A stretch of 48,362 nt of DNA from a virus. How positions within the stretch are numbered: position 1 is the stretch's first letter; each line of letters opens with the position of its first letter. The DNA lies in the IMG/VR virus record IMGVR_UViG_3300033143_003502, positions 1-48,362 of that record; one strand, written 5' to 3'. Both the position numbers and the translations under genes were made by a program. Positions 4,992-29,244 of this stretch are shown piece after piece. The notes under the pieces are model-generated. The model was not told where the DNA came from and made no database searches. It saw only the letters and a list, made by a program, of their open reading frames with translations.

Positions 4992-6008
4992 ATGACTTTA
5001 AAAGATAATACTTCTGGTATTCTTTTGGATCAAAGTTCTGTAAGGACTATTGAAATTGATCTTCCGCTTTTAAATAGACAAAGAACTTACACATATATGA
5101 ACAATGAAACCGTCATAAACGATATTTATGGCGAAACTATGTTCTTTGGCGACTGGCACCTTGGAAGCTCTGGATTTTCTAACAACTCTTTCAATGCCCA
5201 CCTAACTTTGTTAAAACAGAACCCTCACATGAGAACTTTATTAACGGGAGACTACTTTGAATTTTCAGGAAAGACAAATTATATATCTGATGAAATCTTA
5301 GATATTGATGATCAGATTGACTTGTTTGTTAAGACTTTGAAACTTTTGAAACATCAAGTTATTGGAATTTTAGCTGGTAATCACGATAATCGTATTACAA
5401 AATATACTGGAATTAAAAAATACCTAAGACATTATGCTAAAGAAGCAGGAATCGATGTCGATAAAATATATATTGGAGATCCGCAAAGAGGAATAAATAT
5501 ATTTTTCAGTGCTGGAGACTTTGTTTATTCCGCATACGGCATACATGGAAGTACAAGTGCTTGGAGAAATAAAAACACACAGCTAAAAAGAATGGCTGTT
5601 GGTAGAAGACATACATTGTTATTCATGGGACATGTTCATCAAATCTTGTGGGAACCTGTATTGTATCTAGAACCTACAAACAAAGGTGAAGTAGAAGCAC
5701 GATTACAATACTGGTTAGCAACTGGTGGATTCTTAAAAGATGCTTCATACGCAGAAGCAAAAAGCTATCCTCCTAGTTTAGTCGGTGCTCCTATTGTTAG
5801 ATTCTTCGCTAATAAAAATGAACTTGACATGTGGACAATGCCATACAGAAGCCACTACATACAAGGCGGAACTACTCCTCTTACGGGAATAGAAGGAAGT
5901 AACTTTATCGCTCGAAAAGATGAACGGAAGCGAAAACAGTTTCCAGTTTTGAATACTTTGAGCGAAAAATATACACCAAAATCTAAAACATCGGTCTTAC
6001 CTCCATAG
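4992..6008 (+). CDS. calcineurin-like metallophosphoesterase
   Basis: The 338-residue protein carries the full metallophosphoesterase signature: GDWHLG (D54, H56), GDYFE (D87), GNHDNR (N130, H131, D132), a later His in YGIHGS (H185), and GHVH (213-216). The family uses two metal ions to cleave phosphodiesters or phosphomonoesters, and includes SbcD/Mre11-type nucleases. Given its place next to polB, action on DNA ends or nucleotides is plausible but unproven; no Mre11-like capping domain is recognised. The last 40 residues are basic and probably disordered. It has its own AACC-type promoter. Confidence 0.9.
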   Translation: MTLKDNTSGILLDQSSVRTIEIDLPLLNRQRTYTYMNNETVINDIYGETMFFGDWHLGSSGFSNNSFNAHLTLLKQNPHMRTLLTGDYFEFSGKTNYISDEILDIDDQIDLFVKTLKLLKHQVIGILAGNHDNRITKYTGIKKYLRHYAKEAGIDVDKIYIGDPQRGINIFFSAGDFVYSAYGIHGSTSAWRNKNTQLKRMAVGRRHTLLFMGHVHQILWEPVLYLEPTNKGEVEARLQYWLATGGFLKDASYAEAKSYPPSLVGAPIVRFFANKNELDMWTMPYRSHYIQGGTTPLTGIEGSNFIARKDERKRKQFPVLNTLSEKYTPKSKTSVLPP

Positions 6009-6023
6009 AAACCTTTTTATATA
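6009..6023 (+). promoter_or_regulatory. promoter, AACCTTTTTATA type
   Basis: AAACCTTTTTATATA begins at the stop codon of the preceding gene and lies about 30 nt before the ATG at 6052. Confidence 0.65.
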
Positions 6024-6051
6024 CCTTTTTTATAATATCTATTGAATTAAC

Positions 6052-6615
6052 ATGAACAAATATAATGTTAAAGCCAAAGGTGTAACTGATCTTTTACCTC
6101 ACAAATATATTGGGATTAGTCAAGCTAAAGAAGCTAACCAGTTGACAGATGATAAAGAGCGAGCAGAACGATTCACTTACAGAGATAAAAATGGTATGTT
6201 ATGCATTCCCGTTGAATGTATAAGAGCAACAATTATCAATGGATTTGTTGGAACTGCTGGGCCCAAGCAAAAAACTAAAACAAAGATGCACGTATCACCA
6301 CGCATTAGAGTACAGTCTCTATCAGATTATGATCTTACCAATGTTCCTCTGATGCTTAATGGAGAACATATAACATCTTATGAAATAGATAGAAGAAGTT
6401 ATTCTGCTGGAGGCAGAAGCGGTGGAATCAGAGATTTCTGTGTCAGAGCAAAAATTCCAGAGTGGGAAATAGAATTCCAACTAATATCCACAGTTGACAT
6501 TTCAAAGAAAGATTTGAAATATAAACTAGATTTTGCTGGTTCAGATGTTGGCGTACTAAGTAATAGAGTAAATGGCTATGGTCGTTTCGAAATTACAAAT
6601 CTTCAAAAAATCTAA
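6052..6615 (+). CDS. possible RAMP/Cas7-like nucleic-acid-binding protein
   Basis: The 187-residue protein resembles a widespread phage family whose members end in a glycine-rich GxGxx...GRF(E/V) segment; here GYGRFEI spans 175-181. A mid-protein segment CIPVECIRATIINGF (51-65) resembles the IPG-S-x-KGALR element of RAMP/Cas7 proteins, and the C-terminal glycine motif resembles their G-rich loop. I infer an RRM-like, RAMP-type fold able to bind RNA or single-stranded DNA; this is a weak resemblance by eye. It is the last gene before the AGTNN pentamer array, so it is a candidate for a protein acting on that array. It has its own promoter and is followed by a T6 tract. Confidence 0.6.
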   Translation: MNKYNVKAKGVTDLLPHKYIGISQAKEANQLTDDKERAERFTYRDKNGMLCIPVECIRATIINGFVGTAGPKQKTKTKMHVSPRIRVQSLSDYDLTNVPLMLNGEHITSYEIDRRSYSAGGRSGGIRDFCVRAKIPEWEIEFQLISTVDISKKDLKYKLDFAGSDVGVLSNRVNGYGRFEITNLQKI

Positions 6616-6631: not shown

Positions 6632-7337
6632 AGTAGAGTTTAGTGAAGTCTAGTGTAGTGTAGTGCAGCCAAGTAGAGTGTAGTGCAGCTAAGTCTAGCA
6701 AAGTACAGTAAAGTGTAGTGCAGTATAGTCGAGTTTAGTGAAGTAGAGTGCAGTTAAGTCAAGTAAAGTACAGTAAAGTAGAGTGCAGTGAAGTTGAGTC
6801 GAGTGAAGTAAAGTACAGTAAAGTGAAGTGGAGCATAGTGAAGTAAAGTAAAGTTGAGTGCAGTATAGTGGAGTTCAGTAGAGTGAAGTAAAGTACAGTC
6901 TAGTAAAGTTTAGTTCAGTAAAGCGAAGTTAAGTGGAGTGAAGCAGAGTAAAGTCAAGTAGAGTACAGTAAAGTACAGTCAAGTACAGTGAAGTAAAGTT
7001 CAGCGTAGTCTAGTGGAGTGAAGTTGAATTTAGCATTAGTTCAGTTGAGCTAAGTTAAGTGTAGTCGAGTAGAGTAAAGTTGAGTGAATTAAAGTACAGT
7101 ACAGTAAAGTGAAGTGAAGTCAAGTAAAGTCAAGTAAAGTAAAGTGTAGTGGAGTATAGTGAAGTATAGTAAAGTCTAGCGAAGTTGAGTCGAGTGAAGT
7201 TTAATAGAGTGAAGTTTAATAGAGTTAAGTACAGTGGAGTATAGTTCAGTTAAGTGGAGTATAGTTTAGCGAAGTAAAGTGTAGTCAAGTACAGTAAAGT
7301 GAAGTAGAGTCCAGTATAGTGAAGTAAAGTGTAGTAT
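6632..7337. repeat. array of about 141 AGTNN pentamers
   Basis: This 706-bp stretch has a strict 5-nt period. Units start at every position equal to 2 modulo 5 from 6632 to 7036 (81 units); one extra T at 7037 shifts the phase; then 60 more units run from 7038 to 7337. The first three bases are AGT in roughly nine units of ten, otherwise mostly AGC and rarely AAT or ATT. Bases 4 and 5 vary freely, and all 16 dinucleotides occur. C is scarce on this strand. Stop codons occur in all frames and no gene is seen on either strand. It fills the gap between the gene ending at 6615 and the terminase gene. Function unknown; origin, packaging, partition or protein-loading site are possibilities. Confidence 0.95.
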
Positions 7338-7340
7338 AGG

Positions 7341-7353
7341 AATCCTTTTATAC
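7341..7353 (+). promoter_or_regulatory. promoter for terminase gene
   Basis: AATCCTTTTATAC begins 4 nt after the last pentamer and lies about 29 nt before the ATG at 7379. It is a variant of the AACCTTTTTATA element. A second TATA-like run at 7361-7372 is too close to the start codon. Confidence 0.55.
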
Positions 7354-7378
7354 TACCTTTTATTTATATATAACACTA

Positions 7379-14968: not shown

Positions 14969-15134
14969 GACGGGTTAGCCAAGTCTGGCCGTAAGGCGTT
15001 ACACTGCTAAGCAGGACGAAACTCGAAAGCAGGGCGATACTTGAATCAGAACGAAACTGGAACGGTCTGCACAGAAATGTAATCACTCCGTAACCAATCG
15101 GAGTGCAGGGGTTCAAATCCCCTACCCGTCGCCA
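14969..15134 (+). tRNA. tRNA-Ser(GCT) with 67-nt intron
   Basis: The acceptor GACGGGT pairs perfectly with ACCCGTC. Anticodon stem TTACA (14999-15003) pairs with TGTAA (15078-15082); the loop C-T-GCT-A runs 15004-15009, then an intron at about 15010-15076, then A38. The variable arm CACTCCG/CGGAGTG is a perfect 7-bp stem, as expected for Ser. The T-arm is AGGGG-TTCAAAT-CCCCT. Discriminator G15131 and encoded CCA (15132-15134) follow. The intron position after base 37 is the standard archaeal one, so splicing must rely on a tRNA endonuclease, presumably the host's. Confidence 0.93.
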
Positions 15135-15362: not shown

Positions 15363-16193
15363 ATGGAAACATTCACAGTTATGATTGGAGATAGATCATG
15401 TTACAACAAGTGTATGGTCTGTATATCTAATATGACACCCGAAGTAGGTATTACGAGAGAATTCAATTATTCAAAATTTATAGACGCTGTACGTATAGCC
15501 AAACGTAGAGGATGTAAAAATGTACTTATTACTGGTAAGGGAGAACCTTTATTATTCCCCAATACTCTTAGTCGGATTACTGAAAGATTACATGATGAAA
15601 GATCATTTGATCGTATAGAATTACAGACATCAGGATTCCCGTTCAATATTGATGAATTTGAAGAATATGCTACACACGGATTAGATTTAGTTTCACTTAG
15701 CATTTATCATTTCAACCATAAAAACAGAGATATTTATAGAAACAATATCCGTGATGTTGCCGAGATGATAAAAGACCTTAGAGATATTGGATTAGAAGTT
15801 CGACTGTCTTGTAACATGGCTATGGGTTATATTGATGATCCTGTTGATGTTTCAAGATTGATAGATTTTTGTAAGGTCAACGATGTCATGCAACTCACTC
15901 TTAGAGAATTAGGAGCACCCAATAACATAGTTGATACGAAACTTGCCAGAAAGACTAAAGGTTATGTAGATACATTTAGAGTTAGAAAAATTAATAAAAT
16001 TTATGAATATCTCAACGATGAGGGACATCTTTGTTATACGATGCCACACGGAGCATTGGTTTATGAAGTTGATGGACAGAATATTTCAATAACAACATGT
16101 CTCGACACTGAGCCTAATAGACACTTGATCTATTTACCTAGCGGAATTCTCACGACAAGTTGGGAATATGTAGCAGGAAATAGGATTCTTTAG
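15363..16193 (+). CDS. radical SAM enzyme
   Basis: The 276-residue protein has the radical SAM cluster motif CYNKCMVC (C13-x3-C17-x2-C20), a GKGEP motif (58-62) equivalent to GGEP for SAM binding, and a TIM-barrel-like pattern of strands (LITGKG, IELQTSG, LVSLSIYHF, VRLSCNMAM). It should bind a 4Fe-4S cluster and cut SAM to a 5'-deoxyadenosyl radical. Substrate unknown. It might activate the NrdD at 45545, since no other activase is seen, but it is larger than typical NrdG and more like general MoaA-type proteins. It could instead act in tRNA or nucleotide modification. Confidence 0.85.
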   Translation: METFTVMIGDRSCYNKCMVCISNMTPEVGITREFNYSKFIDAVRIAKRRGCKNVLITGKGEPLLFPNTLSRITERLHDERSFDRIELQTSGFPFNIDEFEEYATHGLDLVSLSIYHFNHKNRDIYRNNIRDVAEMIKDLRDIGLEVRLSCNMAMGYIDDPVDVSRLIDFCKVNDVMQLTLRELGAPNNIVDTKLARKTKGYVDTFRVRKINKIYEYLNDEGHLCYTMPHGALVYEVDGQNISITTCLDTEPNRHLIYLPSGILTTSWEYVAGNRIL

Positions 16194-16196
16194 TTA

Positions 16197-16203
16197 TTTT
16201 TTT
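16197..16203 (+). terminator. T7 terminator
   Basis: Seven T residues begin shortly after the radical SAM stop codon at 16191-16193, ahead of a new promoter. Confidence 0.4.
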
Positions 16204-16221
16204 ATATAAATTAGCTATCAT

Positions 16222-16237
16222 AACATTTATATACTAC
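16222..16237 (+). promoter_or_regulatory. TATA-like promoter for gene at 16260
   Basis: AACATTTATATACTAC is centred about 30 nt before the ATG at 16260. A run of alternating TA follows it. Confidence 0.5.
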
Positions 16238-16259
16238 ATATATATATGTATATGTTGCT

Positions 16260-16913
16260 ATGAGTTGGATAACTGGAGCAAAAAGAACATACCTGCCAAG
16301 CCTTCAAATACAAGGTGACGCATTTGCTGTTGTTGAGTTTTTAGAAGAACCAGTACCTCAAAATTTCGGAACTAAAAAAGTTACCAGAGATAAGATTGAG
16401 ATAGAAGTCCCAGACATTAGAGTTAGGGCTAAGGTTCGATATTTAAGCGGAACATGCAGAAGCAAGCAAAGTAAGCAAGATTCACTACCTGCGAAAGCTG
16501 GAAATGAATACACGCTTTGGATAGGATCTGTTCTTTCTGGAAAAATTTTAGATGCACTAAATTGGAATGATTCAAATAGTGCACCTGAATTAATAGGAAC
16601 ACAATGGAGAGTTTGGAGAGGAGCAGTAGGATCTTTCGGAAGAAGAGTCTACGAAACTGAAATAGTCTCTGTTGAAGGATATGAACCACCTGCACCACCT
16701 ACACCGGAGGATCAGGATGCACTTCTAATAGATTCGTTGAAAAAAGCAATCATAAGATTAGCAGATATTGACACGGTTACTTGGTACAATTTCTGTAAGG
16801 AAAAAGGAGCCAAAGATGAAGCCGATGCAATCAGAATTACTAAGCTAATGGAAGAGCAAGGAATCGTAAGAATCGAAGCAACACAAATATTCTATATAGA
16901 ACCACCACAGTAG
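16260..16913 (+). CDS. possible OB-fold ssDNA-binding protein with C-terminal helical domain
   Basis: The first 145 residues read as a beta-rich domain with strands such as DAFAVVEFLEE, VRAKVRYLSG, NEYTLWIGSV and WRVWRGAVG, an OB-fold-like pattern with exposed aromatics and basic residues. A proline linker (YEPPAPPTPEDQD, about 141-153) leads to a helical C-terminal domain that may be a winged helix. The layout resembles archaeal single-strand-binding proteins but no diagnostic motif is present. Position directly before a Cas4-like nuclease supports a DNA role. It has its own promoter, probably shared with the next gene 10 nt later. Confidence 0.6.
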   Translation: MSWITGAKRTYLPSLQIQGDAFAVVEFLEEPVPQNFGTKKVTRDKIEIEVPDIRVRAKVRYLSGTCRSKQSKQDSLPAKAGNEYTLWIGSVLSGKILDALNWNDSNSAPELIGTQWRVWRGAVGSFGRRVYETEIVSVEGYEPPAPPTPEDQDALLIDSLKKAIIRLADIDTVTWYNFCKEKGAKDEADAIRITKLMEEQGIVRIEATQIFYIEPPQ

Positions 16914-16922
16914 AACACAACC

Positions 16923-17657
16923 ATGTCAGCTAAAAATTGGAGCAACCCGAACGCCAAAGGCATTCTAATAGGTTTACACCTATTACCTACGCCTATTGTT
17001 GAACACATGAGAAGAACAATTGGTGGAAGACCAGCAATTGAAAATGTGTATCACGTTACAGAACTTCTTTACTGTTTGCGAAAAGCATACAATAGAAGAA
17101 TATACAGTAATGGTGATGGATTTGACAATAGCAGTTTGTGGAACATATATAGAGGAACTACATTTGATTATAAGTTTTCACCTCTATTTGACATTAATCA
17201 AAAGACATATCACATAACAAAAGAACATTTAACTATTACAGGTACGTTGGACTTTGTATGGATAGATGAAAAGAACTTCGATCCGATATTATATGACTTG
17301 AAAATGCCGAAGAATACTTTCTACAAGAAAAGTTCTGGAGCAGGAAAGTTCTATACTGAACAAGTACAAACATACCTAGCAATGGCACACGCTAATAACG
17401 AATTAATGCATGTACATAGAGCAAGAGTATTAATGTTAGCAGATGATCTTGTAATACAAGAAGTACAAGAGAATGATGAAATATTAAACTATCTATGGGA
17501 AAGAGCATTCATATTAGATGATGCAGTAAAGACACATAAAACTGATCCACTGGAACCATTAACAATAGTGGGCCCAGAAGAAGAGTGGGAATGTCGAGAA
17601 CCGTTCTGTCCCGGAGATTTGCTATATCGATTAGAATGTAAAAAATATCCTAAATAA
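16923..17657 (+). CDS. Cas4-like PD-(D/E)XK exonuclease
   Basis: The 244-residue protein has the Cas4/RecB-type nuclease core: TGTLDFVW (D110), YDLKMPK (D125 and K127), and the helix motif QVQTYLAMAH (Q147-x3-Y151). A lone Cys in ELLYCLRKAY (C51) and three near the C-terminus (C224, C229, C239) match the iron-sulfur cluster ligands of Cas4/AddB-type nucleases. It likely trims DNA ends during recombination or replication. No CRISPR array or cas1/cas2 gene is present, so an adaptation role is not supported. It is followed by a T7 terminator. Confidence 0.85.
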   Translation: MSAKNWSNPNAKGILIGLHLLPTPIVEHMRRTIGGRPAIENVYHVTELLYCLRKAYNRRIYSNGDGFDNSSLWNIYRGTTFDYKFSPLFDINQKTYHITKEHLTITGTLDFVWIDEKNFDPILYDLKMPKNTFYKKSSGAGKFYTEQVQTYLAMAHANNELMHVHRARVLMLADDLVIQEVQENDEILNYLWERAFILDDAVKTHKTDPLEPLTIVGPEEEWECREPFCPGDLLYRLECKKYPK

Positions 17658-17660
17658 CCC

Positions 17661-17667
17661 TTTTTTT
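17661..17667 (+). terminator. T7 terminator
   Basis: Seven T residues lie just after the stop codon at 17655-17657, before the glycan operon promoter. Confidence 0.45.
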
Positions 17668-17679
17668 ATTATAATTACC

Positions 17680-17698
17680 GAAATACTTTTATATCAGG
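17680..17698 (+). promoter_or_regulatory. promoter of the glycan operon
   Basis: GAAATACTTTTATATCAGG lies about 30 nt before the ATG at 17722. No other promoter-sized gap exists until 27497, so it may drive about 9.8 kb of overlapping genes. Confidence 0.55.
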
Positions 17699-17721
17699 AC
17701 TTCCTATAAGTTATTAATAAT

Positions 17722-18891
17722 ATGAAGATTATGCTAATGTCGGATTCTTGGCACACCATTTCTGGTTTTGGTACTGCCTCACGAAATCTTGCTACATACT
17801 TGCATAACGTAGGTCATGATGTTTATTATTTAGGATGGCAAACGTTTGGGCAAAAACAGATAGCAACATTTCACGATAAAATTCTTGGATTTAAAGGTTT
17901 ACCCAACGTTGGAGGTAAACAATTTGGACAGGATGCTTGGAAATACTGGCTTCCTAAGATAGAACCAGACGTTTTCTTATGTCTTTCAGATTTCTGGATG
18001 CTTTTAGAACTCTTTAAACAAAATGAGATTCCTTATCCTTGGCTTATGTGGTATCCTATAGATGGATTCCCTGTAACAGACCAAATGCAAGCTATGTTAA
18101 AGAAACTTGACTATAGAGTTTGTATCTCTGAATATGGAGGTAAATTAGTTAAAGACATGGGAATTTCTACAGGAGTAGTACCTCACGGATGTAACACTGA
18201 TGTGTTTAAACCTTACCACAAAACTGTAATTAAAAGTATGAAGAGAAGATTAGGTATTCCTGAAAATAAGTTTGTGATTGGTCGTGTTGACAGAAATCAA
18301 AGCAGAAAAAAGGTTCCGAGACTAATCAGAGCCTTTATAAAGTTCCGTAAAGATTACCCAGACAGTGTTTTATATTTACACATGGATAAGAGAGATACCC
18401 AAGGGTGGGATCTTGAGTACATTGTGAAAAGAATGGGACTGATAGAGGGTAAAGATGTATTCTTCCCACCATCGGACATGATGGCTAACTTTATGTATGG
18501 AGTTCCTGAAGAGGAATTAGCACATATAATGAATGTTATCGACATACACGGTTGGACAACAGGTGGAGAAGGATTCGGACTTACGGGACTAGAAACAATG
18601 GCTTGTGGTACTGTCAACGTAGCTACAGATTACACAACTCCTCAAGAAATTTTTGGAGATTGGACATGTGGACTACCAATTAAGGTTGAAACATTTGAAA
18701 TCGGAAATGCTGGAGTAGATAGAGCACTTGTAGATATCGATGATTGCTACGGCAAGATGAAATATCTAAGAGAGAATCTAGATGAAATGAAAGCACTCAG
18801 CGATGCAGGAGTCAAGCGGGCGAGAGATGTCTATGATTGGCAAATAATCTCCAAAGGATTCGATCACTGGATGAGGGATAATATAGTATGA
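17722..18891 (+). CDS. glycosyltransferase, GT-B (family 4-like)
   Basis: This 389-residue GT-B protein starts with the sugar-acceptor domain (MKIMLMSDSWHTISGFGTA) and has the family-4 C-terminal signature GEGFGLTGLETMACGT (about 281-296), the E-x7-E motif that binds the nucleotide-sugar donor. A basic segment DRNQSRKKVPR (near 192) is the usual phosphate-binding region. It should add a sugar to a glycan, protein or lipid; donor and acceptor are unknown. It is the first gene of a long overlapping operon of glycan genes, and the next gene starts inside its stop codon (ATGA). Confidence 0.9.
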   Translation: MKIMLMSDSWHTISGFGTASRNLATYLHNVGHDVYYLGWQTFGQKQIATFHDKILGFKGLPNVGGKQFGQDAWKYWLPKIEPDVFLCLSDFWMLLELFKQNEIPYPWLMWYPIDGFPVTDQMQAMLKKLDYRVCISEYGGKLVKDMGISTGVVPHGCNTDVFKPYHKTVIKSMKRRLGIPENKFVIGRVDRNQSRKKVPRLIRAFIKFRKDYPDSVLYLHMDKRDTQGWDLEYIVKRMGLIEGKDVFFPPSDMMANFMYGVPEEELAHIMNVIDIHGWTTGGEGFGLTGLETMACGTVNVATDYTTPQEIFGDWTCGLPIKVETFEIGNAGVDRALVDIDDCYGKMKYLRENLDEMKALSDAGVKRARDVYDWQIISKGFDHWMRDNIV

Positions 18892-19124
18892 TAGACTATA
18901 TACCTGTACGGTCAGACCACTTTGCGGAAATGGCAGCACTGTTAATTACCAAAAGAGACAGGGATGTGTTAAACGCTTTCATAGAACTATTACCAGAAAA
19001 CGTAAAACTAAACAACACTCATTTTAATAACATAAGAATGGCTTCACAACTATCTCCGGGAAATACACTAAAACATCTTGATGAACTTATTGAAGTCTTA
19101 AAAGAAGAGGATAGATGGGAATGA
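18888..19124 (+). CDS. hypothetical protein, 78 aa
   Basis: Not recognised. It is a small helical protein with no membrane segment. Its ATG overlaps the previous stop by 4 nt, and its own stop (TGA 19122-19124) overlaps the next gene's start. Placed between two glycosyltransferases, it may be a small partner of one of them, but nothing in its sequence shows this. Confidence 0.65.
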   Translation: MIDYIPVRSDHFAEMAALLITKRDRDVLNAFIELLPENVKLNNTHFNNIRMASQLSPGNTLKHLDELIEVLKEEDRWE

Positions 19125-20323
19125 AAATATTAGTTCAAAATCCATACATGAAAGCTGGTGGTGCAGAATCCAGAATCAGAACATTACTACAATCTCTAGT
19201 TCGTAGACCAGATATAGATCAAGTACACTTTATGTTCAAAGGAGATCAACCCATACATCAAGTAGAAGCTGATGGAAAGTTTCATTACTGGCAAATTCGA
19301 CCAAAGACAACTAAAGAAATGACCAAGAAAGTAATCAAAGACTTTGACATCGATATTGTACAGCTACATAACAATCAATTTATAGGCACTGGCGGAATTG
19401 AATATGCTCAGAAACTAGGAATCCCTACTGTATGGATAATGCACGATTTTTGGCCCTTATGCTCTCAAAGATTCATGACTAAAGTTTGGGCTGCTGACAG
19501 TTCAGAACTATGTTATGACTTAAATATGTCTAAATGTCAAAAATGTGTAGGTAATTATCAAACACTTTTAACCAAAAGACAGAGGGATATCATCAATAAA
19601 TGTGATGTAGGTATAGTTCCATCGGAAAATATTAAGAGCATATTTGAAAGAAACGATGTCTTAAAAGGAAAATTGAAGATAATCAAGCCTTGGATAGACT
19701 TGGGAATCTTCGCTCCTGATCCAAGTATAAATAGAAAACCATTTCAAATCTTATTTGCAAGCGGAAACTATATTCCTCACAAGGGAATCAATGTTTTACT
19801 AAAGGCTTGGGAATATGTTCAAAGAAGATTACCACAAGCAAATCTCATAGCAATCGGAGATCAAAGATGTGCAAATGAAACCATATCTAAAGCAAAACAA
19901 TTACAATTACAAAATGTAAACTTCTTGAATAGGGTAGAACAATCACAGCTTAAAAGATTTTATAATGAATCTGCACTAACAATATTCCCTTCAATATGGG
20001 AAGAAACCATAGGGTTAGTTTGGATAGAATCTTTAGCTTGTGGAACACCAGTTATATGTTCAGATACAGGTAGCATGAAAGAATTGCTATTGTTCGGTGG
20101 CGAAATGTTTGAACCTAGAAACCACGTAGCATTAGCAGAAAAAATAGTAGATTTATTATTGTCTCCGAGCAAAAGAAACATCTACGCACAGCAAGGTCAC
20201 AAATATGTAACTACAAGTTTTCAACCAACTAGAGCAGCCAATGACTTTGCACATCTTTATTATAAATTAGAGGTAGAAAAAATTGACAAAGATAACAAAA
20301 GCGGAATTAAAAAAGAAAATTGA
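19121..20323 (+). CDS. glycosyltransferase, GT-B (family 4-like)
   Basis: This 400-residue protein opens with KILVQNPYMKAGGAESRI, the glycine-rich acceptor-side loop of family-4 enzymes, and carries EETIGLVWIESLACGTPV (the E-x7-E donor motif, about 303-320). A cysteine group CYDLNMSKCQKC near 127-138 is found in some GT4 members and may bind metal. ATG 19121 is preferred because it overlaps the previous stop as ATGA, like other junctions in this operon; an in-frame ATG at 19115 is the alternative. Confidence 0.9.
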   Translation: MKILVQNPYMKAGGAESRIRTLLQSLVRRPDIDQVHFMFKGDQPIHQVEADGKFHYWQIRPKTTKEMTKKVIKDFDIDIVQLHNNQFIGTGGIEYAQKLGIPTVWIMHDFWPLCSQRFMTKVWAADSSELCYDLNMSKCQKCVGNYQTLLTKRQRDIINKCDVGIVPSENIKSIFERNDVLKGKLKIIKPWIDLGIFAPDPSINRKPFQILFASGNYIPHKGINVLLKAWEYVQRRLPQANLIAIGDQRCANETISKAKQLQLQNVNFLNRVEQSQLKRFYNESALTIFPSIWEETIGLVWIESLACGTPVICSDTGSMKELLLFGGEMFEPRNHVALAEKIVDLLLSPSKRNIYAQQGHKYVTTSFQPTRAANDFAHLYYKLEVEKIDKDNKSGIKKEN

Positions 20324-20330
20324 GGGAGTA

Positions 20331-20573
20331 ATGGAAATTGCTCCTTATATCAATACATCCAATATGCATAGAGCATTATTGGAAAAATATCAATACGTGG
20401 ATATTGAAGAAATAATGGATGAAATAGATAAAGAGAAATTAGCTTCTCTTATGAAAGCACCTGCGACTATCATGGTCAAAGGTAACAAATCCCTTGAAGA
20501 AGTGGTAAAAAATGCCGAGAGGAAGAAAAAGAAAAAGCTCGAAGAAGAACGAGAAAAAGAAAAAGATAAATGA
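20331..20573 (+). CDS. hypothetical charged protein, 80 aa
   Basis: The frame is open from a TTG at 20283, but the ATG at 20331 follows GAGGGAGT at good spacing and is the better start. The protein begins MEIAPYINTSNMHRALLE, is helical, and ends with a run of Lys, Glu and Arg (about residues 60-80). It overlaps the next gene by 62 nt in another frame. Function unknown. Confidence 0.6.
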   Translation: MEIAPYINTSNMHRALLEKYQYVDIEEIMDEIDKEKLASLMKAPATIMVKGNKSLEEVVKNAERKKKKKLEEEREKEKDK

Positions 20574-20949
20574 GCGTGTGCCAGAAGCAGAAATGCCCAA
20601 GACACAAGCACTCTTCTCAGAAGAGCAGTATGGACTTAGCTTAATGGAAAGTTTCATGAAATCTGATATGGATATGATAGCCATAGCTTATAGAGTTCCA
20701 ACTGGAGATATGGGAAGAGAAGATGTCACAAGAAGGTATCGTAGTCAAATGATTTCGGCACTACAAACATTAGGTAAGAGGAGAGGATTAGTAATATCAG
20801 TTCAACACATTCATTTTAGAGCTTTACCTATTGGAGAAGATACCATTATAAAAGCATTTGCGGTAAATAAAAATATAAATAAAGCAAGAGATAATAAACC
20901 GCTTGAGAAAAAAGAAAAAGATGTATTTGATTGGAAAGTGAACGTATGA
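20512..20949 (+). CDS. hypothetical basic protein, 145 aa
   Basis: Not recognised. The first 22 residues are very basic (MPRGRKRKSSKK...KKKK), then comes a mixed domain with MIAIAYRVPTGD, a helix with RRYRSQMISALQTLGKRRG and a strand LVISVQHIHF. The basic N-terminus suggests nucleic acid or phosphate contact. The 62-nt overlap with the previous gene uses the same Lys-rich coding DNA in two frames, which is unusual. A later in-frame ATG (codon 28) is a possible alternative start. Confidence 0.6.
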   Translation: MPRGRKRKSSKKNEKKKKINERVPEAEMPKTQALFSEEQYGLSLMESFMKSDMDMIAIAYRVPTGDMGREDVTRRYRSQMISALQTLGKRRGLVISVQHIHFRALPIGEDTIIKAFAVNKNINKARDNKPLEKKEKDVFDWKVNV

Positions 20950-22025
20950 AAATATTAGCAATAGGACATAGTATAGCCCACTATCGACAAAGAAAGATGT
21001 GGGAAACGATAGCAGAACAGGGACACAAAGTTGATACTGTTGTTGTTCCTAGATACCAGAACGAGGTATATGAGGAAATTGTTAAAGGCTCTTTCCATCA
21101 ACACCTAGTTCCGGCATATAACTCAGACAATAATAATTTTTGGTATTTCCCTGCTTTACATGATTTAGTCATGAAGCTGAAACCAGAAATTATTTTCTGT
21201 ATGCAGGAACCTTGGACTTATGCGGCATATCATGCTATGAATGTAGCAAAGATATTCGATATTCCTTATGGGTTCTTTACTTGGGAAAATATTCCTAAAC
21301 CTTGGCCCCAACCTTGGAGGTACATTGAAAGTGAAGTCATTAAAAATAGTTACTTATCTGTAGGTGGAAACAAAGATGCATGTGAAATTCTTGTACTGAA
21401 AGGTGCAAAGCATGTAGCAAAAGTATTACAATCAGGGTTAGATCCAAATCTATTCTTCCCTGAACCAGAGTTACAGTTTGAGGAAAAACTAAGACCTAAA
21501 AGAATACTGTTTGTAGGTAGATTAACTGCCGCTAAAGGTATAGATATAATTCTAAAATCATTTGACAAATTACCAAAAGATGAGTACATACTCAGATTTG
21601 TTGGTGGTCGAGGAGAACAAGAAGGACTTATTAGAAAGCACCCAGAATTCGGTAAAAGAATAACACTAGAACCTTGGACACAATATGAAAGATTACCAGC
21701 AATTTACAATTGGGCAGATGTATCACTTATGACTTCCGTTGATCAACCAATGTGGATTGAACAATGTGGATATGTCGTAGGAGAATCATTGTTATGTCAC
21801 GTACCTGTAATCACATCATTTAGTAAGAGTATTCTTGAACTTTGGAAGATGCCGGGAGTATTCTTTACACCACAGGGAGACGTAGACTTATTAGCAGATA
21901 CACTAACACACGAAGAACTATTTAACAAAGAACTGCCGAAAAAAGGTAGACAAGCAGTAATAGACAACTACTCAGTAGAAAAGATAGCACAAACATATAT
22001 AGATATATTCGAGGCAACAATATGA
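20946..22025 (+). CDS. glycosyltransferase, GT-B (family 4-like)
   Basis: This 359-residue protein starts MKILAIGHSIAHYRQRKMWE and has the GT4 hinge RPKRILFVGRLTAAKGIDIIL (within about 181-202), with the phosphate-binding GR...KG pattern. In the donor site, QCGYVVGESLLCHVPVI (about 276-292) stands where E-x7-E is normal, so one Glu is replaced by Gln or shifted. ATG 20946 is preferred to 20931 because the protein then starts at the first beta strand. It overlaps the next gene by 4 nt. Confidence 0.85.
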   Translation: MKILAIGHSIAHYRQRKMWETIAEQGHKVDTVVVPRYQNEVYEEIVKGSFHQHLVPAYNSDNNNFWYFPALHDLVMKLKPEIIFCMQEPWTYAAYHAMNVAKIFDIPYGFFTWENIPKPWPQPWRYIESEVIKNSYLSVGGNKDACEILVLKGAKHVAKVLQSGLDPNLFFPEPELQFEEKLRPKRILFVGRLTAAKGIDIILKSFDKLPKDEYILRFVGGRGEQEGLIRKHPEFGKRITLEPWTQYERLPAIYNWADVSLMTSVDQPMWIEQCGYVVGESLLCHVPVITSFSKSILELWKMPGVFFTPQGDVDLLADTLTHEELFNKELPKKGRQAVIDNYSVEKIAQTYIDIFEATI

Positions 22026-22363
22026 GTATGGATAAAGTGGAAGACACAAAAGTATCATACATGTACTCTGCTAGAAACCCGATTGAAATAGTCGAAGACG
22101 GAGAGACAAAACTTATTTATGATGTTAAAACTAAAGATTTTACTATAACAAAAGAATTAAAGTTTAAAATACTACACGCAATTGGAAAAGCACATGGAGA
22201 ACTAATGGAGATTCCATTTATTATTTTGATTCCTCAAAAACTTGTGAAACATGGATTGTCTAAATATGTCAAATCATTTTTAAAATTTAGAGGACACAAA
22301 TTATACATAGTTCCAACAATTAAAGATATCATAGTTTATGAAGATGGGTGGTTATTTAAATGA
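22022..22363 (+). CDS. hypothetical protein, 113 aa
   Basis: Not recognised. It is a small alpha-beta protein with no membrane segment: acidic N-terminal strands, then a helix (ELKFKILHAIGKAHGE) and a repeated strand pattern (FIILIPQKLVKHG, KLYIVPTIKDIIVYED). Both ends overlap neighbours by 4 nt (ATGA), so it is translated as part of the glycan operon. Confidence 0.65.
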   Translation: MSMDKVEDTKVSYMYSARNPIEIVEDGETKLIYDVKTKDFTITKELKFKILHAIGKAHGELMEIPFIILIPQKLVKHGLSKYVKSFLKFRGHKLYIVPTIKDIIVYEDGWLFK

Positions 22364-22518
22364 GTGAAGAATTTAAGAGTATAGTCGTAAAAGATGGTTT
22401 AGAATATTGTCCTCATTGTGAAAAGCATATTGGTTATACTATTGATTGGATTGAACGAAATACTGTCGGTGTAAAACCTAAGAAAATTCTAAAATTTAAA
22501 ATGGTGAGAATAGAATGA
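22360..22518 (+). CDS. small CPHC protein, 52 aa
   Basis: This short gene uses the ATGA overlap at both ends (22360 and 22515). The protein begins MSEEFKSIVVKDGLEYCPHC and has one CxxC pair followed by a nearby His (EKH), a possible half zinc site, then a basic strand VKPKKILKFKMV. It is too small for an enzyme and may be an accessory or regulatory peptide. The exact overlaps on both sides support it as real. Confidence 0.65.
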   Translation: MSEEFKSIVVKDGLEYCPHCEKHIGYTIDWIERNTVGVKPKKILKFKMVRIE

Positions 22519-23486
22519 GTGAAGAAAAACCAATATTAACAGTATGCCCAGAGGCATATCCCGGAACAACATCTGTACTTAAACACTACAGTGTATCAAA
22601 TTTAGTAGAACACAGTGATGAAATATCACCACAAACAGTAGAGGGAAAGAAGCTAGTCATACTTGGTGGATGGCATCCTATCTATTACGAAGCTGTTAAG
22701 AAAATTCATGCTGCCAACGTACCGATAGGAATGTTCTGGACAAGTTCAGTAGGACAGAATGACTTTTCAAACAATGGAATAGAAATATCATTTATACACA
22801 TAATCACAGATATGCTCAACTCAGGAATGGTTGATAAATTATTTGTAGCTACACCATCAGTTAAAAGTATGTATGATCAAATAGTTGATCCTGAGAAGGT
22901 TATACTTTTACCATACGCTTTTGATTGGGATGACGTTCAAAAGAGCCTTAAACCAGACGTTCCAGTAGGGGATGATTGGGTAGATTTATTCTGTCCGGGA
23001 GACACTAGAAAGAATATTCTAGTTCAGACACTTGGAACGAAATTAGCAGGTGGTCACTTACATTACAGTGGATTAAAACCAAGATATAAATGGTTCGCAG
23101 ATTTAATTAAATCTAAATACACAGACATGGGATGGATGGGAAAACCCGATCCATATTACACAGCAGTTCAAACTATGAAGTTAGGTTTACAGGTAACTTA
23201 CGCTGAAACATTTGACTACGTAGTAGCAGAACACTTTGCATTGAAAAGACCTTGCTTAATTTCGACAGTAATGACACAATGGGTAGACAACAAAAGACTT
23301 CTAAAGGATATCCTAGTTCATAATCTTGACGAACCGCTAGAAGTAGCAGAAAAAATCGAACATGTGTTAAATATGAGCAATAAAAGATGGAAAAACTTAA
23401 ATAATAGATGCCACTCTTTTATGAAAGATGAAGCTAAAAAGAGAAATGATATCGCTACTGAAGTGCTCAGAGGAGAAGTAGAATGA
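22515..23486 (+). CDS. diverged GT-B glycosyltransferase-like protein
   Basis: This 323-residue protein has a GT-B look without the full family-4 signature. The N-terminal part has strands ILTVCPEAYPG and LVILGGWHPIYYE. The second half has WVDLFCPGDTRKN, which aligns with the usual hinge and phosphate-binding area, and ETFDYVVAEHFALKRPCL (about 234-251), corresponding to the E-x7-E donor motif with changed residues. It likely binds a nucleotide sugar, but activity is less certain than for its neighbours. Overlaps both neighbours by 4 nt. Confidence 0.75.
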   Translation: MSEEKPILTVCPEAYPGTTSVLKHYSVSNLVEHSDEISPQTVEGKKLVILGGWHPIYYEAVKKIHAANVPIGMFWTSSVGQNDFSNNGIEISFIHIITDMLNSGMVDKLFVATPSVKSMYDQIVDPEKVILLPYAFDWDDVQKSLKPDVPVGDDWVDLFCPGDTRKNILVQTLGTKLAGGHLHYSGLKPRYKWFADLIKSKYTDMGWMGKPDPYYTAVQTMKLGLQVTYAETFDYVVAEHFALKRPCLISTVMTQWVDNKRLLKDILVHNLDEPLEVAEKIEHVLNMSNKRWKNLNNRCHSFMKDEAKKRNDIATEVLRGEVE

Positions 23487-24499
23487 ATATATTAATTACC
23501 GGAGGAGCCGGATTTATCGGATTTGCATCTGCCGTTGAGTTGATAAACAAAGGGCATGATGTTACTATTTTAGACAAAGTTGTTGGCGGTAGAAATGAAC
23601 TTAATTGGAACATGGCTAAACAAATGGGTATTCCTAGAATTCATGCTAACATCAATGACTTGAATATTTTACCAGAATTAATCAATATTGGTAAAGATTT
23701 TGATGCAATTTTACACTGTGCCGCACAAACAGCAGTTACACATTCATTGGAAGATCCTAGAGCAGACTTTATAGACAATGCTAGAGGAACATTCGAAGTG
23801 TGTGAGTATGCTAGAAAGAACGATTTGGCAATACTGTACACCAGTACAAATAAAGTATATGGTGAAAATCCAAACAAAGTACAACTTGTTGAACAAGATA
23901 CCAGATATGAATATGGCAATCCAAAATTTTGCATCGATGAAACATTCTTAATTGATCTGACAGGACATACACCGTACGGTACATCAAAACTTACAGCCGA
24001 CCTCTATGTTCAAGATTATAGATACACCTATGGATTACGAACACTCGTATTTAGACAGAGTTGTATCTATGGAACTAGCCAACAAGGTACTGAAGATCAA
24101 GGATGGGTATCTCACATGGTTAAAAGTTGGGTAAATAGAAAACCAATAAAAGTTTTCGGAAATGGTAAACAGGTAAGAGACATGCTCCACGTAGATGATT
24201 TAACTGATTTAATAATTAAAGGTTTAGAATCTGATAGGTCAGGAGTCTTTAATGTTGGTGGAAGTCTACTAAATACAATATCAATATTAGAATTATTTGA
24301 ACTTCTTAATAAACTAGCTCCGAGAGAGGATGCGTATTCGTTCTTCCCTTGGAGAGAAGGAGATCAGAAAGTCTTTATATGCAACATTAGAAAAGTAATC
24401 AAACAATTCGATTGGATACCAAAAATATCTCCCGTAGAAGGAATTACACACATGGTCAGATATGAAGAAATGTTACAAAATGCTGTTAAAGTTAGGTGA
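23483..24499 (+). CDS. NAD-dependent epimerase, CDP-tyvelose/paratose 2-epimerase-like
   Basis: This 338-residue extended short-chain dehydrogenase has the NAD-binding GGAGFIG (7-13), a catalytic YGTSK (Tyr and Lys in TPYGTSKLTADLYVQDY) and TSTNKVYGENPN. The stretches TNKVYG, a later acidic DE before the Tyr motif, FRQSCIYG and GKQVRDMLHVDDL closely follow CDP-paratose 2-epimerases (RfbE), which make CDP-tyvelose, a 3,6-dideoxyhexose. The exact substrate cannot be read from sequence; no other dideoxysugar genes are in the window. It sits between two glycosyltransferase-type genes and would supply an unusual sugar donor. Confidence 0.88.
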   Translation: MNILITGGAGFIGFASAVELINKGHDVTILDKVVGGRNELNWNMAKQMGIPRIHANINDLNILPELINIGKDFDAILHCAAQTAVTHSLEDPRADFIDNARGTFEVCEYARKNDLAILYTSTNKVYGENPNKVQLVEQDTRYEYGNPKFCIDETFLIDLTGHTPYGTSKLTADLYVQDYRYTYGLRTLVFRQSCIYGTSQQGTEDQGWVSHMVKSWVNRKPIKVFGNGKQVRDMLHVDDLTDLIIKGLESDRSGVFNVGGSLLNTISILELFELLNKLAPREDAYSFFPWREGDQKVFICNIRKVIKQFDWIPKISPVEGITHMVRYEEMLQNAVKVR

Positions 24500-24504
24500 A
24501 TAAA

Positions 24505-25191
24505 ATGGAAATACCGTATGAAGAAATAATGAAATATTACCACACTGGAAAACTACCTCCAGTGCAGACACTACCCGTATTCAGAAGAGAATACGATGAT
24601 ATAGAACAAGTTGTAGGTAAAGGATACAAAGTCTTAGACTTTGGATGTGGAAGAGGATTAGTTTACACCAAATTCTTGCAAGCACTTCCCTATGATATCG
24701 AATACGTTGGTATAGATATTGATCCAAGTTTGAAAGGCAAAGTACCTTTCCCACTCTATGAATCTCTAGAAGAATTTGAAGACACATATTCACCACGACA
24801 CTTTGATGGACTATTTTTACTAGATGTCTTGGAACATTTATCTTTAAAAGAAGGTTACGATACACTGGCAAGATTAAACAAATATATCGATGGCGATATT
24901 GTATTAATGACACCCAACGCAAGTTGTTTAGATTACATATACAACGATCCACAACATGTAACAATATATCCTTCACATTGGATTTATGGATTACTTAAAC
25001 ATTTAGGTTTCGATAAAATAATAATGAAAAGAGGTAAAGGGCTACATGCACGAAGAGAACAATTAGCTAGGGAAAACCCTAATCAAGCAGAACAATACAA
25101 AGTTATGAATGAAAGTCAACGACAGATATGTGCTTCTATGGGACTAGATTGGTATGGAAATCTGCTAGCTATAGGTAAGCGTGATGAATAA
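24505..25191 (+). CDS. SAM-dependent methyltransferase
   Basis: This 228-residue class I methyltransferase has motif I VLDFGCGRGLVYTKF, motif II VGIDIDPS and the motif IV-like LFLLDVLEHLS, as in UbiE/sugar methyltransferase families. ATG 24505 follows GGTGA at 24495-24499 with a 5-nt spacer and is preferred; a GTG at 24496 is the alternative. In this operon it probably methylates a sugar or glycan end, which may cap the chain. The C-terminal region (PSHWIYGLLKHLGF) is typical of the fold's last strands. Confidence 0.88.
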   Translation: MEIPYEEIMKYYHTGKLPPVQTLPVFRREYDDIEQVVGKGYKVLDFGCGRGLVYTKFLQALPYDIEYVGIDIDPSLKGKVPFPLYESLEEFEDTYSPRHFDGLFLLDVLEHLSLKEGYDTLARLNKYIDGDIVLMTPNASCLDYIYNDPQHVTIYPSHWIYGLLKHLGFDKIIMKRGKGLHARREQLARENPNQAEQYKVMNESQRQICASMGLDWYGNLLAIGKRDE

Positions 25192-26086
25192 GAAAATACT
25201 TGTCATGAGCACTTTTCAAGAGGGTGCTTATGGACACTTAATTGTCAAAGCCCTACGTGAAATGGGACATCGTGTATTAGGTATAGATCATAGAATGCTC
25301 CAAGCTGTCAATTTTGGAAAGCAACACAAAAGTGACCAAATGGTAAAATTCTATGTGAACGGGTTTGAACCAGATATATTGTTTACAATTAAAGGAAGAG
25401 GAATTAGTCCGAGAGTTATCAAAGATATTACCGCATTCAAGGTGAACTGGTGGCTAGATAATGCTAACAGGTTTGCTGAGTTTGAAGGTCTAATTGAACA
25501 TTATGATAAATATTATCTTTGTGAGGACAGTCAAGGACACCCTTGGATGTCGGTAGGAATAGATCCAGATTGGCATAAACCAGTTTACAGTGATGATCCA
25601 AAATATAAAAGCGATATTGTCTTCGCAGGAACGGCACACGTACATAGAAGCCCTAGAATTCTTAAAATATTAGCAGGATTACCCTACGAAGTAGCTATCT
25701 GGGGTAATAGTTGGCCACCAAATACACCATATCTCCGAGGAGAGGCTAGATATCTCAATGAGGACTTTATGACAATCATGACAAATTCTAATTTTGTGTT
25801 GAACAATCACTATGTTCCCGGCATTACTCCTAATATGAGAACAATAGAAGGCCCTGCAAGCGGTACTGCATTGCTCTCAGACACAGGAGAAGGCATAGAG
25901 AAAACTTTAAATAAGGGAACTGAATATATTGCTTATGACACTCCCAAGGAAGCCAGATATTTGATCTATAAATATTTAGAAGAACCTGAAGAAAGAGAGA
26001 AAATAGCAAAGGCTGGACTTGATAGAGTCAATAAAGATCATCTATTAAAAGATAAGTTGGTTAAAATGTTATGTCTAAACCAGTAG
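25184..26086 (+). CDS. CgeB-like GT-B glycosyltransferase
   Basis: This 300-residue protein resembles CgeB-type proteins: MNKKILVMSTFQEGAYGH at the start, NWWLDNANR (about 89-97), a central KSDIVFAGTAHVHR hinge and a C-terminal PNMRTIEGPASGTALLSD (about 222-239), equivalent to the donor-binding Glu motif. The enzyme would use a nucleotide sugar; acceptor unknown. ATG 25184 is chosen over the GTG at 25181 and overlaps the previous gene by 8 nt. Confidence 0.82.
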   Translation: MNKKILVMSTFQEGAYGHLIVKALREMGHRVLGIDHRMLQAVNFGKQHKSDQMVKFYVNGFEPDILFTIKGRGISPRVIKDITAFKVNWWLDNANRFAEFEGLIEHYDKYYLCEDSQGHPWMSVGIDPDWHKPVYSDDPKYKSDIVFAGTAHVHRSPRILKILAGLPYEVAIWGNSWPPNTPYLRGEARYLNEDFMTIMTNSNFVLNNHYVPGITPNMRTIEGPASGTALLSDTGEGIEKTLNKGTEYIAYDTPKEARYLIYKYLEEPEEREKIAKAGLDRVNKDHLLKDKLVKMLCLNQ

Positions 26087-26415
26087 TAATAACGAAAGAA
26101 ATAATCCTTAGAAGTCAGCGAGGTATGATGAATGATTGTTATCTGTATTGCGTTGACTGTCCACAAGCAGAGGAACAAATTCAGATGCTAGGAGAGGAAG
26201 ATAATAAAAAGAATAAAAAAGTTCCCATCACTAAAATAATTTTTTATCGTTGTGCAATGCCTCCGGGAAATTCTGTCACTTATAACAATAAGGAGAGAGG
26301 GAGAGGAAAGTTTGTTAAATTAACACCAGAACAAATCGAAGAACGAAATGAACTCCTTAAAAAACTTCCAACACTTGAAACGGATAAACTTCTAAATAAG
26401 ATTGGTAAAAAATGA
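26071..26415 (+). CDS. Cys-containing hypothetical protein, 114 aa
   Basis: Not recognised. Four cysteines lie in CYLYCVDC (about residues 23-30) and C (in YRCAMPPG, about 61), a possible metal site. The C-terminal half is basic and helical. A similar PPG and KLTPEQ style is common in small archaeal unknown proteins but gives no function. It overlaps the previous gene by 16 nt and the next by 4 nt. Confidence 0.65.
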   Translation: MSKPVVITKEIILRSQRGMMNDCYLYCVDCPQAEEQIQMLGEEDNKKNKKVPITKIIFYRCAMPPGNSVTYNNKERGRGKFVKLTPEQIEERNELLKKLPTLETDKLLNKIGKK

Positions 26416-27497
26416 AAGTAACTTATACAGGCAAGATGGATATCGGTGGCTCCGGTATTGGAACAACTGCTTGGCATCAAGTTAAACCTTTACTTGACAA
26501 TAACTTAATTGAACAAATATACACTACTAAGATGTCAAAACCAGTTAATGATGATAGATTAGTTACTTATATTCCCGAATTGAAATATAGCTATCCTATT
26601 GGTTATTTAGCTGGAGATATCTTCTTTGATGGTGTTACAGCATTAGGAATGGAAAACCCAGAGGTTATTCACACATGGGGAGCACAATGTTTGTATCAAT
26701 TACAGACGCATCCCGACGCAGTTTCAATTGTAAATCTTTATAGTGCTCATCCATATATTCAAGATCAACTGTTAAAAAATTCACCATTATACCGTCCAAA
26801 TCATCTACACATGAAAAAGTTTGCAGAAGAATTAGAACTTTGTGACCATATATTTATACCTTCTGATTTTATTTTATCCTCTCTTAAAGATGTAGGGTTA
26901 CATAGAAAAGCTAAAATTGTACCATTCGGAGTTGACTTAGAAAAGTTCAATGTTCCTAAAAACAATGAAAAAGCTGAAGAATTTCAAGTAGTTTTTGTAG
27001 GATCAAACTGGAAAAGAAAAGGCTTAATGACTCTTTTACAAGCGTGGGACAATTTAAAATTTGAAAAAGCCAAGTTATATGTTTGTGGTGTTCCAGATAA
27101 TCTAGGAGCATGGCTTAAAGAAAATACACCATTTGAATCTGACAACGTACACTTTGGATGGGTAGATGATTTAGTTGAACTTTACCAAAAATCACACGTA
27201 TTTTGTTTACCTGCATACGAAGATGGCTGTCCTTTAGCTACATACGAAGCTATGGCTTGCGGAACTTTACCCATCATAACAAACACTACAGGAACTAGGC
27301 AACATGTCTATAATGGTAGAAATGGATTCGTTCTTAACGCTGGAAATGTAAAAGAACTAGGTGAATTATTATCTGGTCTGTATGATGATAGAAATGCTTG
27401 TGTTGATATAGGACTGAAAGCTAGACAACATATTGAAGCATTTCCTTGGGAAAGACATGAACAAGATTATCTGAATTGGATTAAAGGTTTACTTTAA
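26412..27497 (+). CDS. glycosyltransferase, GT-B (family 4-like)
   Basis: This 361-residue protein has a glycine-rich N-terminus (MKVTYTGKMDIGGSGIGTTA), the hinge VVFVGSNWKRKGLMTLL with phosphate-binding KRKG, and the donor motif EDGCPLATYEAMACGTLP (about 272-289). These are standard family-4 features. It closes the glycan operon. Its last 9 nt overlap the end of the convergent RHH gene. Confidence 0.9.
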   Translation: MKVTYTGKMDIGGSGIGTTAWHQVKPLLDNNLIEQIYTTKMSKPVNDDRLVTYIPELKYSYPIGYLAGDIFFDGVTALGMENPEVIHTWGAQCLYQLQTHPDAVSIVNLYSAHPYIQDQLLKNSPLYRPNHLHMKKFAEELELCDHIFIPSDFILSSLKDVGLHRKAKIVPFGVDLEKFNVPKNNEKAEEFQVVFVGSNWKRKGLMTLLQAWDNLKFEKAKLYVCGVPDNLGAWLKENTPFESDNVHFGWVDDLVELYQKSHVFCLPAYEDGCPLATYEAMACGTLPIITNTTGTRQHVYNGRNGFVLNAGNVKELGELLSGLYDDRNACVDIGLKARQHIEAFPWERHEQDYLNWIKGLL

Positions 27498-29051: not shown

Positions 29052-29244
29052 TCAAGGGTTAGCTTATACCATCATGATACTTGAAGGTCATAAGCTATCA
29101 AACCATTCTATTGTGGATATGACCAGATACCAAAAAATAGCCTATCTTAGTGCTTACAAGATTAGGAATGATCTTAGTGCTTACAAGATTAGGAATGAAG
29201 CAGAGAAAGAAGCCCAACGAAGAGCAAACAGGAAGATGAGATAA
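29032..29244 (+). CDS. tail assembly chaperone T-like extension, probably made by +1 frameshift
   Basis: This frame opens right after a TAG at 29029-29031 and runs to the stop at 29242-29244. It overlaps the end of the upstream gene. A +1 slip at UCC-UUU-C (29034-29040) would join residue 156 of the upstream protein to LKSDQGLAYTIMILEGHK and give about 223 residues. An internal ATG at 29074 would instead give a free 56-residue protein starting MILEGHKLSNH. The text is helical and charged, as in T extensions that recruit tape measure proteins. It contains a perfect 27-bp tandem duplication (29144-29197). Confidence 0.65.
   Translation, partial: SPFLKSDQGLAYTIMILEGHKLSNHSIVDMTRYQKIAYLSAYKIRNDLSAYKIRNEAEKEAQRRANRKMR
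29144..29197. repeat. perfect 27-bp tandem duplication
   Basis: Two identical 27-bp units, 29144-29170 and 29171-29197, encode LSAYKIRN twice within the chaperone extension. The frame is kept because 27 is a multiple of three. The lack of any difference suggests a recent event. Confidence 0.9.

Follow-up and report, generated by a model that had tools for sequence, protein, structure and literature searches.

A probable VIPR locus with a 706-bp array of AGTNN pentamers in an archaeal tailed virus

Organization of the locus

The analyzed stretch of DNA (48,362 bp, hereafter the window) belongs, as judged from its gene content, to an archaeal head-tailed virus. Its DNA polymerase B has its best matches among haloarchaeal tailed viruses, and a PriS-like primase (a sub-threshold Pfam match) and a Rad51-family protein are also encoded. 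TerL, tape-measure-like and portal-like proteins were found, and the promoters are archaeal-looking. The search for close relatives of the terL and vipr genes of this virus returned only a near-identical 84-kb contig. The terL gene starts at position 7379 (Pfam and PHROG matches), and the region upstream of it contains the following features:

4992..6008, + strand: calcineurin-type phosphoesterase/exonuclease-like gene (phrog_7339 'DNA repair exonuclease', E 6.3e-25)
6013..6025, + strand: archaeal TATA-box-like element CTTTTTATATACC, upstream of vipr, recognized by sequence
6052..6615, + strand: predicted vipr gene for a 187-aa RAMP (Cas7-like) protein, assigned by PHROG, profile and fold evidence, 16 bp upstream of the array
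6632..7036, + strand: predicted guide-RNA (vrRNA) array, segment 1, 81 contiguous AGTNN units
7037..7037, + strand: single extra T, the sole break in the 5-nt register
7038..7337, + strand: predicted vrRNA guide array, segment 2, 60 contiguous AGTNN units
7322..7365, + strand: candidate 3' tail hairpin (8 + 11 bp, 4-nt loop), with the last AGTNN units as its 5' arm
7344..7354, + strand: TATA-box-like element of terL, CCTTTTATACT, recognized by sequence and overlapping the hairpin

The array (6632-7337, 706 bp, approximately 141 units) is real by both the per-unit tally and autocorrelation. The first position is invariant (A in 141/141 units), the second is G in 137 units (97%), and the third is T in 130 units (92%) and C in 11; the resulting triplets are AGT (126 units), AGC (11), AAT (3), and ATT (1). 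The entropy of these three positions is 0-0.4 bit, as opposed to 1.86 and 1.90 bits at positions 4 and 5, where all 16 dinucleotides are present (AA in 24 units, GA in 21, and CC, the rarest, in one). Identity at lag 5 is 0.65 vs. 0.18-0.23 at lags that are not multiples of 5, and the period persists at lags 10-30 (0.65-0.68) without any higher-order unit. Both measures had been suggested as checks in a preliminary description of this DNA, and they agree with what it reported, as does the unit tally, which reproduces the order of 81 units, one slipped T at 7037, and 60 units. The C content of the array is 51/706. Words of two to three NN pairs recur mildly above chance; repetition beyond chance was not observed for words of four or more units, nor was NN autocorrelation up to lag 30, and inspection by eye revealed no regular spacing of AGC or AAT units that would mark modules.

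The array recurs in a second contig (84,117 bp), which over 31.9 kb differs from the window by 5 substitutions; there it is shorter by 20 and 15 bp, both being whole numbers of 5-nt units. The array is thus not an artefact of one assembly, which answers a concern raised at the outset.

The CTTTTTATATACC element is the likely promoter of both vipr and the array. At the other end, the hairpin at 7322-7365 is a candidate vrRNA tail, with a predicted energy of -14.4 kcal/mol (z -3.1; z -3.4 for a shorter piece), matched by 1 of 200 shuffles; this is the folding energy of one sequence only, in a place that overlaps the AT-rich terL promoter region. The terL gene itself is a bystander.

The Vipr homologue and its association with pentamer arrays

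The product of the gene at 6052-6615 matches phrog_4652 (E 7.6e-7), a PHROG of unknown function. Full-length hhalign alignments were obtained with two independent family profiles, one per Vipr clade, namely A4 (E 3.6e-8) and A5 (E 1.3e-7), the latter of which matches the PDB entry 36pp, 'SUSP1 Vipr protein' (E 2e-81). Identity to other Viprs is approximately 25%, and a phmmer search with the window protein alone missed 36pp. The AF2 model (pLDDT 83, pTM 0.80) was compared with the PDB by Foldseek, and the best 50 matches are all CRISPR type III/VII complexes with Cas7/Csm3-type RAMP subunits. Profile and model comparisons together identify the protein as a Vipr homologue with a predicted Cas7/Csm3-like RAMP fold.

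The trp RNA-binding attenuation protein, TRAP, forms a ring that reads RNA triplets every 5 nt in NAGNN repeats. Its fold is unrelated, and its spacer bases carry no information, unlike what is predicted for the window array; ring binding of the TRAP kind was abandoned as a model once the predicted fold was RAMP.

The IMG/VR scan with which we started, for runs of seven AGTNN units, yielded mostly plain microsatellites (1-5 NN types) and a few degenerate arrays. The contig L054 contains a 191-aa gene (phrog_4652, E 5e-55) followed downstream by five or six short AGTNN modules; this gene and the 187-aa gene of the window share PHROG 4652. By sequence, therefore, AGT is a permitted triplet beside an undoubted Vipr homologue. 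In the PHROG 4652 phages Medea1, Trine, LESphi2, wV8, and LittleE, pentamer arrays in which three bases are fixed and two are free lie by the gene in every case, the unit being GGCNN in the GC-rich genomes and GGTNN in wV8.

We collected 41 other loci by homology to these Vipr-family proteins. An RGYNN array was found within 1.5 kb of the vipr homologue in all of them (41/41); the 134 kb that lie close to the gene contain 103 arrays, whereas the other 193 kb of these loci have none. Nearly all of these arrays (98/103) lie on the gene strand, and the other five are complements at the same GC-rich places. The converse also holds: at two loci where the array was found first (L019 and L036), a divergent Vipr was detected approximately 0.6 kb away (E 2.7e-17). 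The longest other array seen has 62 units, less than half the length of the tract in the window. No terminase gene adjoins the arrays at loci with annotated neighbors, and the adjacency to terL is particular to the window virus among the loci examined.

Variability of the free positions was assessed in seven Felixounavirus contigs or strains, in which the vipr genes are 93.8-100% identical in DNA (approximately 96%). No two of their 29 arrays are identical. Column identity in the aligned arrays is 0.63, 0.955 (G), and 0.857 (Y) for the triplet and 0.33 for each of the NN positions; the information borne by NN is swapped on a conserved frame rather than altered by drift. The suggestion that AGT is under selection while the other two bases vary, as opposed to the array being an old microsatellite, is borne out by this pattern in the vipr relatives.

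Relation to VIPR and alternative explanations

According to a preprint of April 2026, VIPR (Viral Interference Programmable Repeat) is an RNA-guided code related to CRISPR, newly reported and proposed as its root (PMC13142463, bioRxiv 2026.04.26.720920). Its parts are described there as a Vipr RAMP protein of approximately 20 kDa, a vap gene that is typical though not universal, and vrRNAs of 9-16 YNNGG repeats, whose NN pairs recognize dsDNA with one skipped base per repeat; the system silences rival phages and satellites (PMC13142463). The same source distinguishes seven types, found in phages and archaeal viruses and having GGY 'or a related consensus' as the triplet, includes staggered arrays with overlapping vrRNAs, and gives Escherichia phage SUSP1 as a type II example (PMC13142463). 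The link between protein and array was reached here before that paper was found, and the match is thus independent support. The view in the preliminary description that the array fits no known pattern was correct for older knowledge, and it ceased to hold with this preprint.

As in VIPR, the window has a RAMP homologue of about 20 kDa and, beside it on the same strand, tandem pentamers with three fixed and two hypervariable bases, all in a virus; its 3' hairpin is a candidate for the structured tail that follows the repeats of a vrRNA. It differs in its triplet, which is AGT and not literally GGY, in its 141 contiguous units without module boundaries vs. vrRNAs of 9-16 repeats, in its archaeal-virus setting, in the divergence of its Vipr, and in having no clear vap gene. 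The only vap-like neighbor is the gene at 4992-6008, whose product has weak similarity to the archaeal PolD small subunit; it is a possible accessory gene, but more likely a member of the replication module, and vipr has its own TATA-like element. Among Vipr clades, the closest profile match (E 3.6e-8) is to a long-array clade of 30 loci (L153-L182), where long uninterrupted arrays likewise lie immediately upstream or downstream of vipr; the motif there is GGC or GGT, the arrays do not exceed 62 units, and the genomes are GC-richer. CRISPR-Cas types III and VII share the RAMP fold of the RNA-binding subunit (the Cas7/Csm3 backbone), whereas their RNA step is 6 nt rather than 5 nt, and in the window guide information would lie in every repeat. 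CRISPR-length repeats were not found in the window, nor cas genes among the window proteins scanned.

We consider the 706-bp array and the gene upstream of it to be a VIPR locus, with the array serving as the guide-RNA array of an archaeal tailed virus, at a probability of about 0.9. What this analysis contributes to that reading is the array itself, the protein with its homology and predicted fold, the universal pairing of family and array, the hypervariable NN positions of relatives, and the 3' hairpin; that the array is transcribed, bound as RNA, read by the 1-nt-skip code, and used for silencing is carried over from the published system. By that analogy, the array would be transcribed in the direction of vipr, probably together with it, which fits the earlier guess of a transcribed array, since VIPR arrays act as RNA. 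Vipr, a small RAMP protein of presumably ancestral type, would polymerize along the array RNA with one subunit per pentamer; every subunit would grasp an AGU triplet, and the two bases after it would stay free. These NN pairs would base-pair with DNA, skipping one target base between pairs (usually the codon wobble base), and the complex would silence the gene so targeted in a competing virus or another mobile element. Instead of a single guide, the tract of 141 units may encode many, each of approximately 9-16 units and possibly overlapping with others; we hold the manner in which the tract is used with less confidence than its membership in VIPR. A more specific version, offered tentatively, is that the locus represents a distinct archaeal-virus subclass whose Vipr recognizes AGU rather than GGY and whose unbroken RNA of approximately 140 repeats is a continuous library, any 9-16 units of which could serve as a guide, overlapping and without processing sites.

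Searches for targets of the array were negative or judged to reflect chance. Neither the searches of the window's own genome and local sequences with skips of 0-3 nor those with 12-unit windows against 1.43 Mb of local loci and four fuller virus contigs gave anything above shuffled controls. In IMG/VR, the first nine NN pairs with a 1-nt skip had 0 matches, and the last nine had 11 stretches in three unrelated genes, which we judged to be chance. Since these IMG/VR scans covered two of about 130 nine-unit windows, the lack of a target is weak evidence against the VIPR reading. The peptides decoded from NN by degenerate translation (81 and 60 residues) had no tblastn match in phages or plasmids.

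The lack of targets in these local, IMG/VR, and decoded-peptide searches is also what would be expected if the same protein and RNA were made but the array were a decoy that soaks up the Vipr of competitors, its NN content being irrelevant. An excess of 141 units over the needs of a few guides would fit such a decoy, as would the orphan AGTNN arrays without a detectable Vipr in other archaeal-looking contigs (L059, L032). We regard this as improbable, because a Vipr gene of the virus itself lies 16 bp away, the product of which would be titrated too, and because NN turns over completely between strains of short-array relatives, as guides would. Slightly less probable again is a single guide comprising the whole tract and directed at one collinear target of approximately 423 bp, e.g., one rival gene. 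The tract is indeed unbroken save for one slip, and its NN composition fits sense codon positions 1-2 (log-likelihood -376.0; other frames and antisense, -386.8 at best), but plain + strand dinucleotides fit equally well (-376.9), and the decoded peptides match nothing in the phages and plasmids searched.

The position next to terL had led the preliminary description to propose a pac site, origin, partition site, or protein-loading site and a search beside terL in relatives, and the strict half-turn period would fit such a site. A DNA-level site of this kind, with a partition or packaging protein bound at 5-bp intervals, is very unlikely: arrays accompany vipr in 41 other loci, the annotated ones of which are not by a terminase, NN is replaced wholesale between strains, and the adjacent protein is a RAMP and not an RHH/HTH protein or small terminase. 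The half-turn itself becomes superfluous, as five nucleotides would be the RNA step of the protein. The least credible of the alternatives is a drifting AGTNN microsatellite or an assembly artefact. True AGTNN microsatellites do exist, and the two contigs differ by two whole-unit indels; those in five bacterial genomes, however, have 1-4 common NN types and no Vipr gene, whereas the window array keeps AGT with NN near random, and the same layout recurs in dozens of unrelated viruses. The 41/41 association of Vipr and array rules this reading out.

As a VIPR locus, the window would bring into the system a divergent branch, found in an archaeal virus and built on another fixed triplet. The kind of system is known, and what is new here is the AGT triplet, the 141-unit tract, and the divergent Vipr of an archaeal virus. 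The locus makes it testable which Vipr residues choose AGU or GGY and how individual guides are delimited within a boundary-free tract. Because PHROG 4652 is universally coupled with arrays, a phage family so far labelled 'unknown' acquires a function, and VIPR loci can be located in any virome by simple means.

Variant arrays and other features of the window

At the two loci found by their arrays, L019 (5207-9014, IMGVR 3300031802_000007) and L036 (IMGVR 3300031801_000004), a contiguous GTYNN array of approximately 650 bp is interrupted by a 4-nt unit, GTCA, every 9-12 units or so. Preceding the array are the divergent Vipr (253 aa) and an ORF of 217 aa, and the ORF directly downstream of it (571 aa) contains a Cas12f1/TnpB-like TNB domain (PF07282); by sequence, VIPR and a Cas12/TnpB-type nuclease are neighbors here. 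Arrays of 16-17 AGTNN/RGTNN units, all preceded at a distance of 25-27 nt by an archaeal TATA-like box, were observed as orphans in L059 (449-528 of a 105,748-bp contig), L094, and L032 (5499-5583), and no Vipr was detected in these three contigs.

Two members of the long-array clade, L164 (3706-3956) and L172 (3616-3962), have GGCNN arrays punctuated, unlike the window tract, by a 7-nt GGTACAT step every 10-16 units, and these steps are possible guide boundaries. In L134 (8600-8710) and L137 (7675-7869 and 9142-9452), GGCNN modules alternate with the tRNA T-arm-like sequence GGGGTTCGACTCCCC, which suggests tRNA-like tails or processing signals.

The window also contains a tRNA gene with a long intron at 14969-15131 (Rfam tRNA match over 163 bp), and the virus has at least 15 further tRNA genes. 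A perfect 27-bp tandem duplication at 29144-29198 is single-copy in the sister contig, which in turn has a 13-bp duplication of its own at the place corresponding to 33837. The block at 15363-27497, with radical SAM, several glycosyltransferase, and nucleotide-sugar epimerase genes, is probably involved in surface or virion glycan modification.
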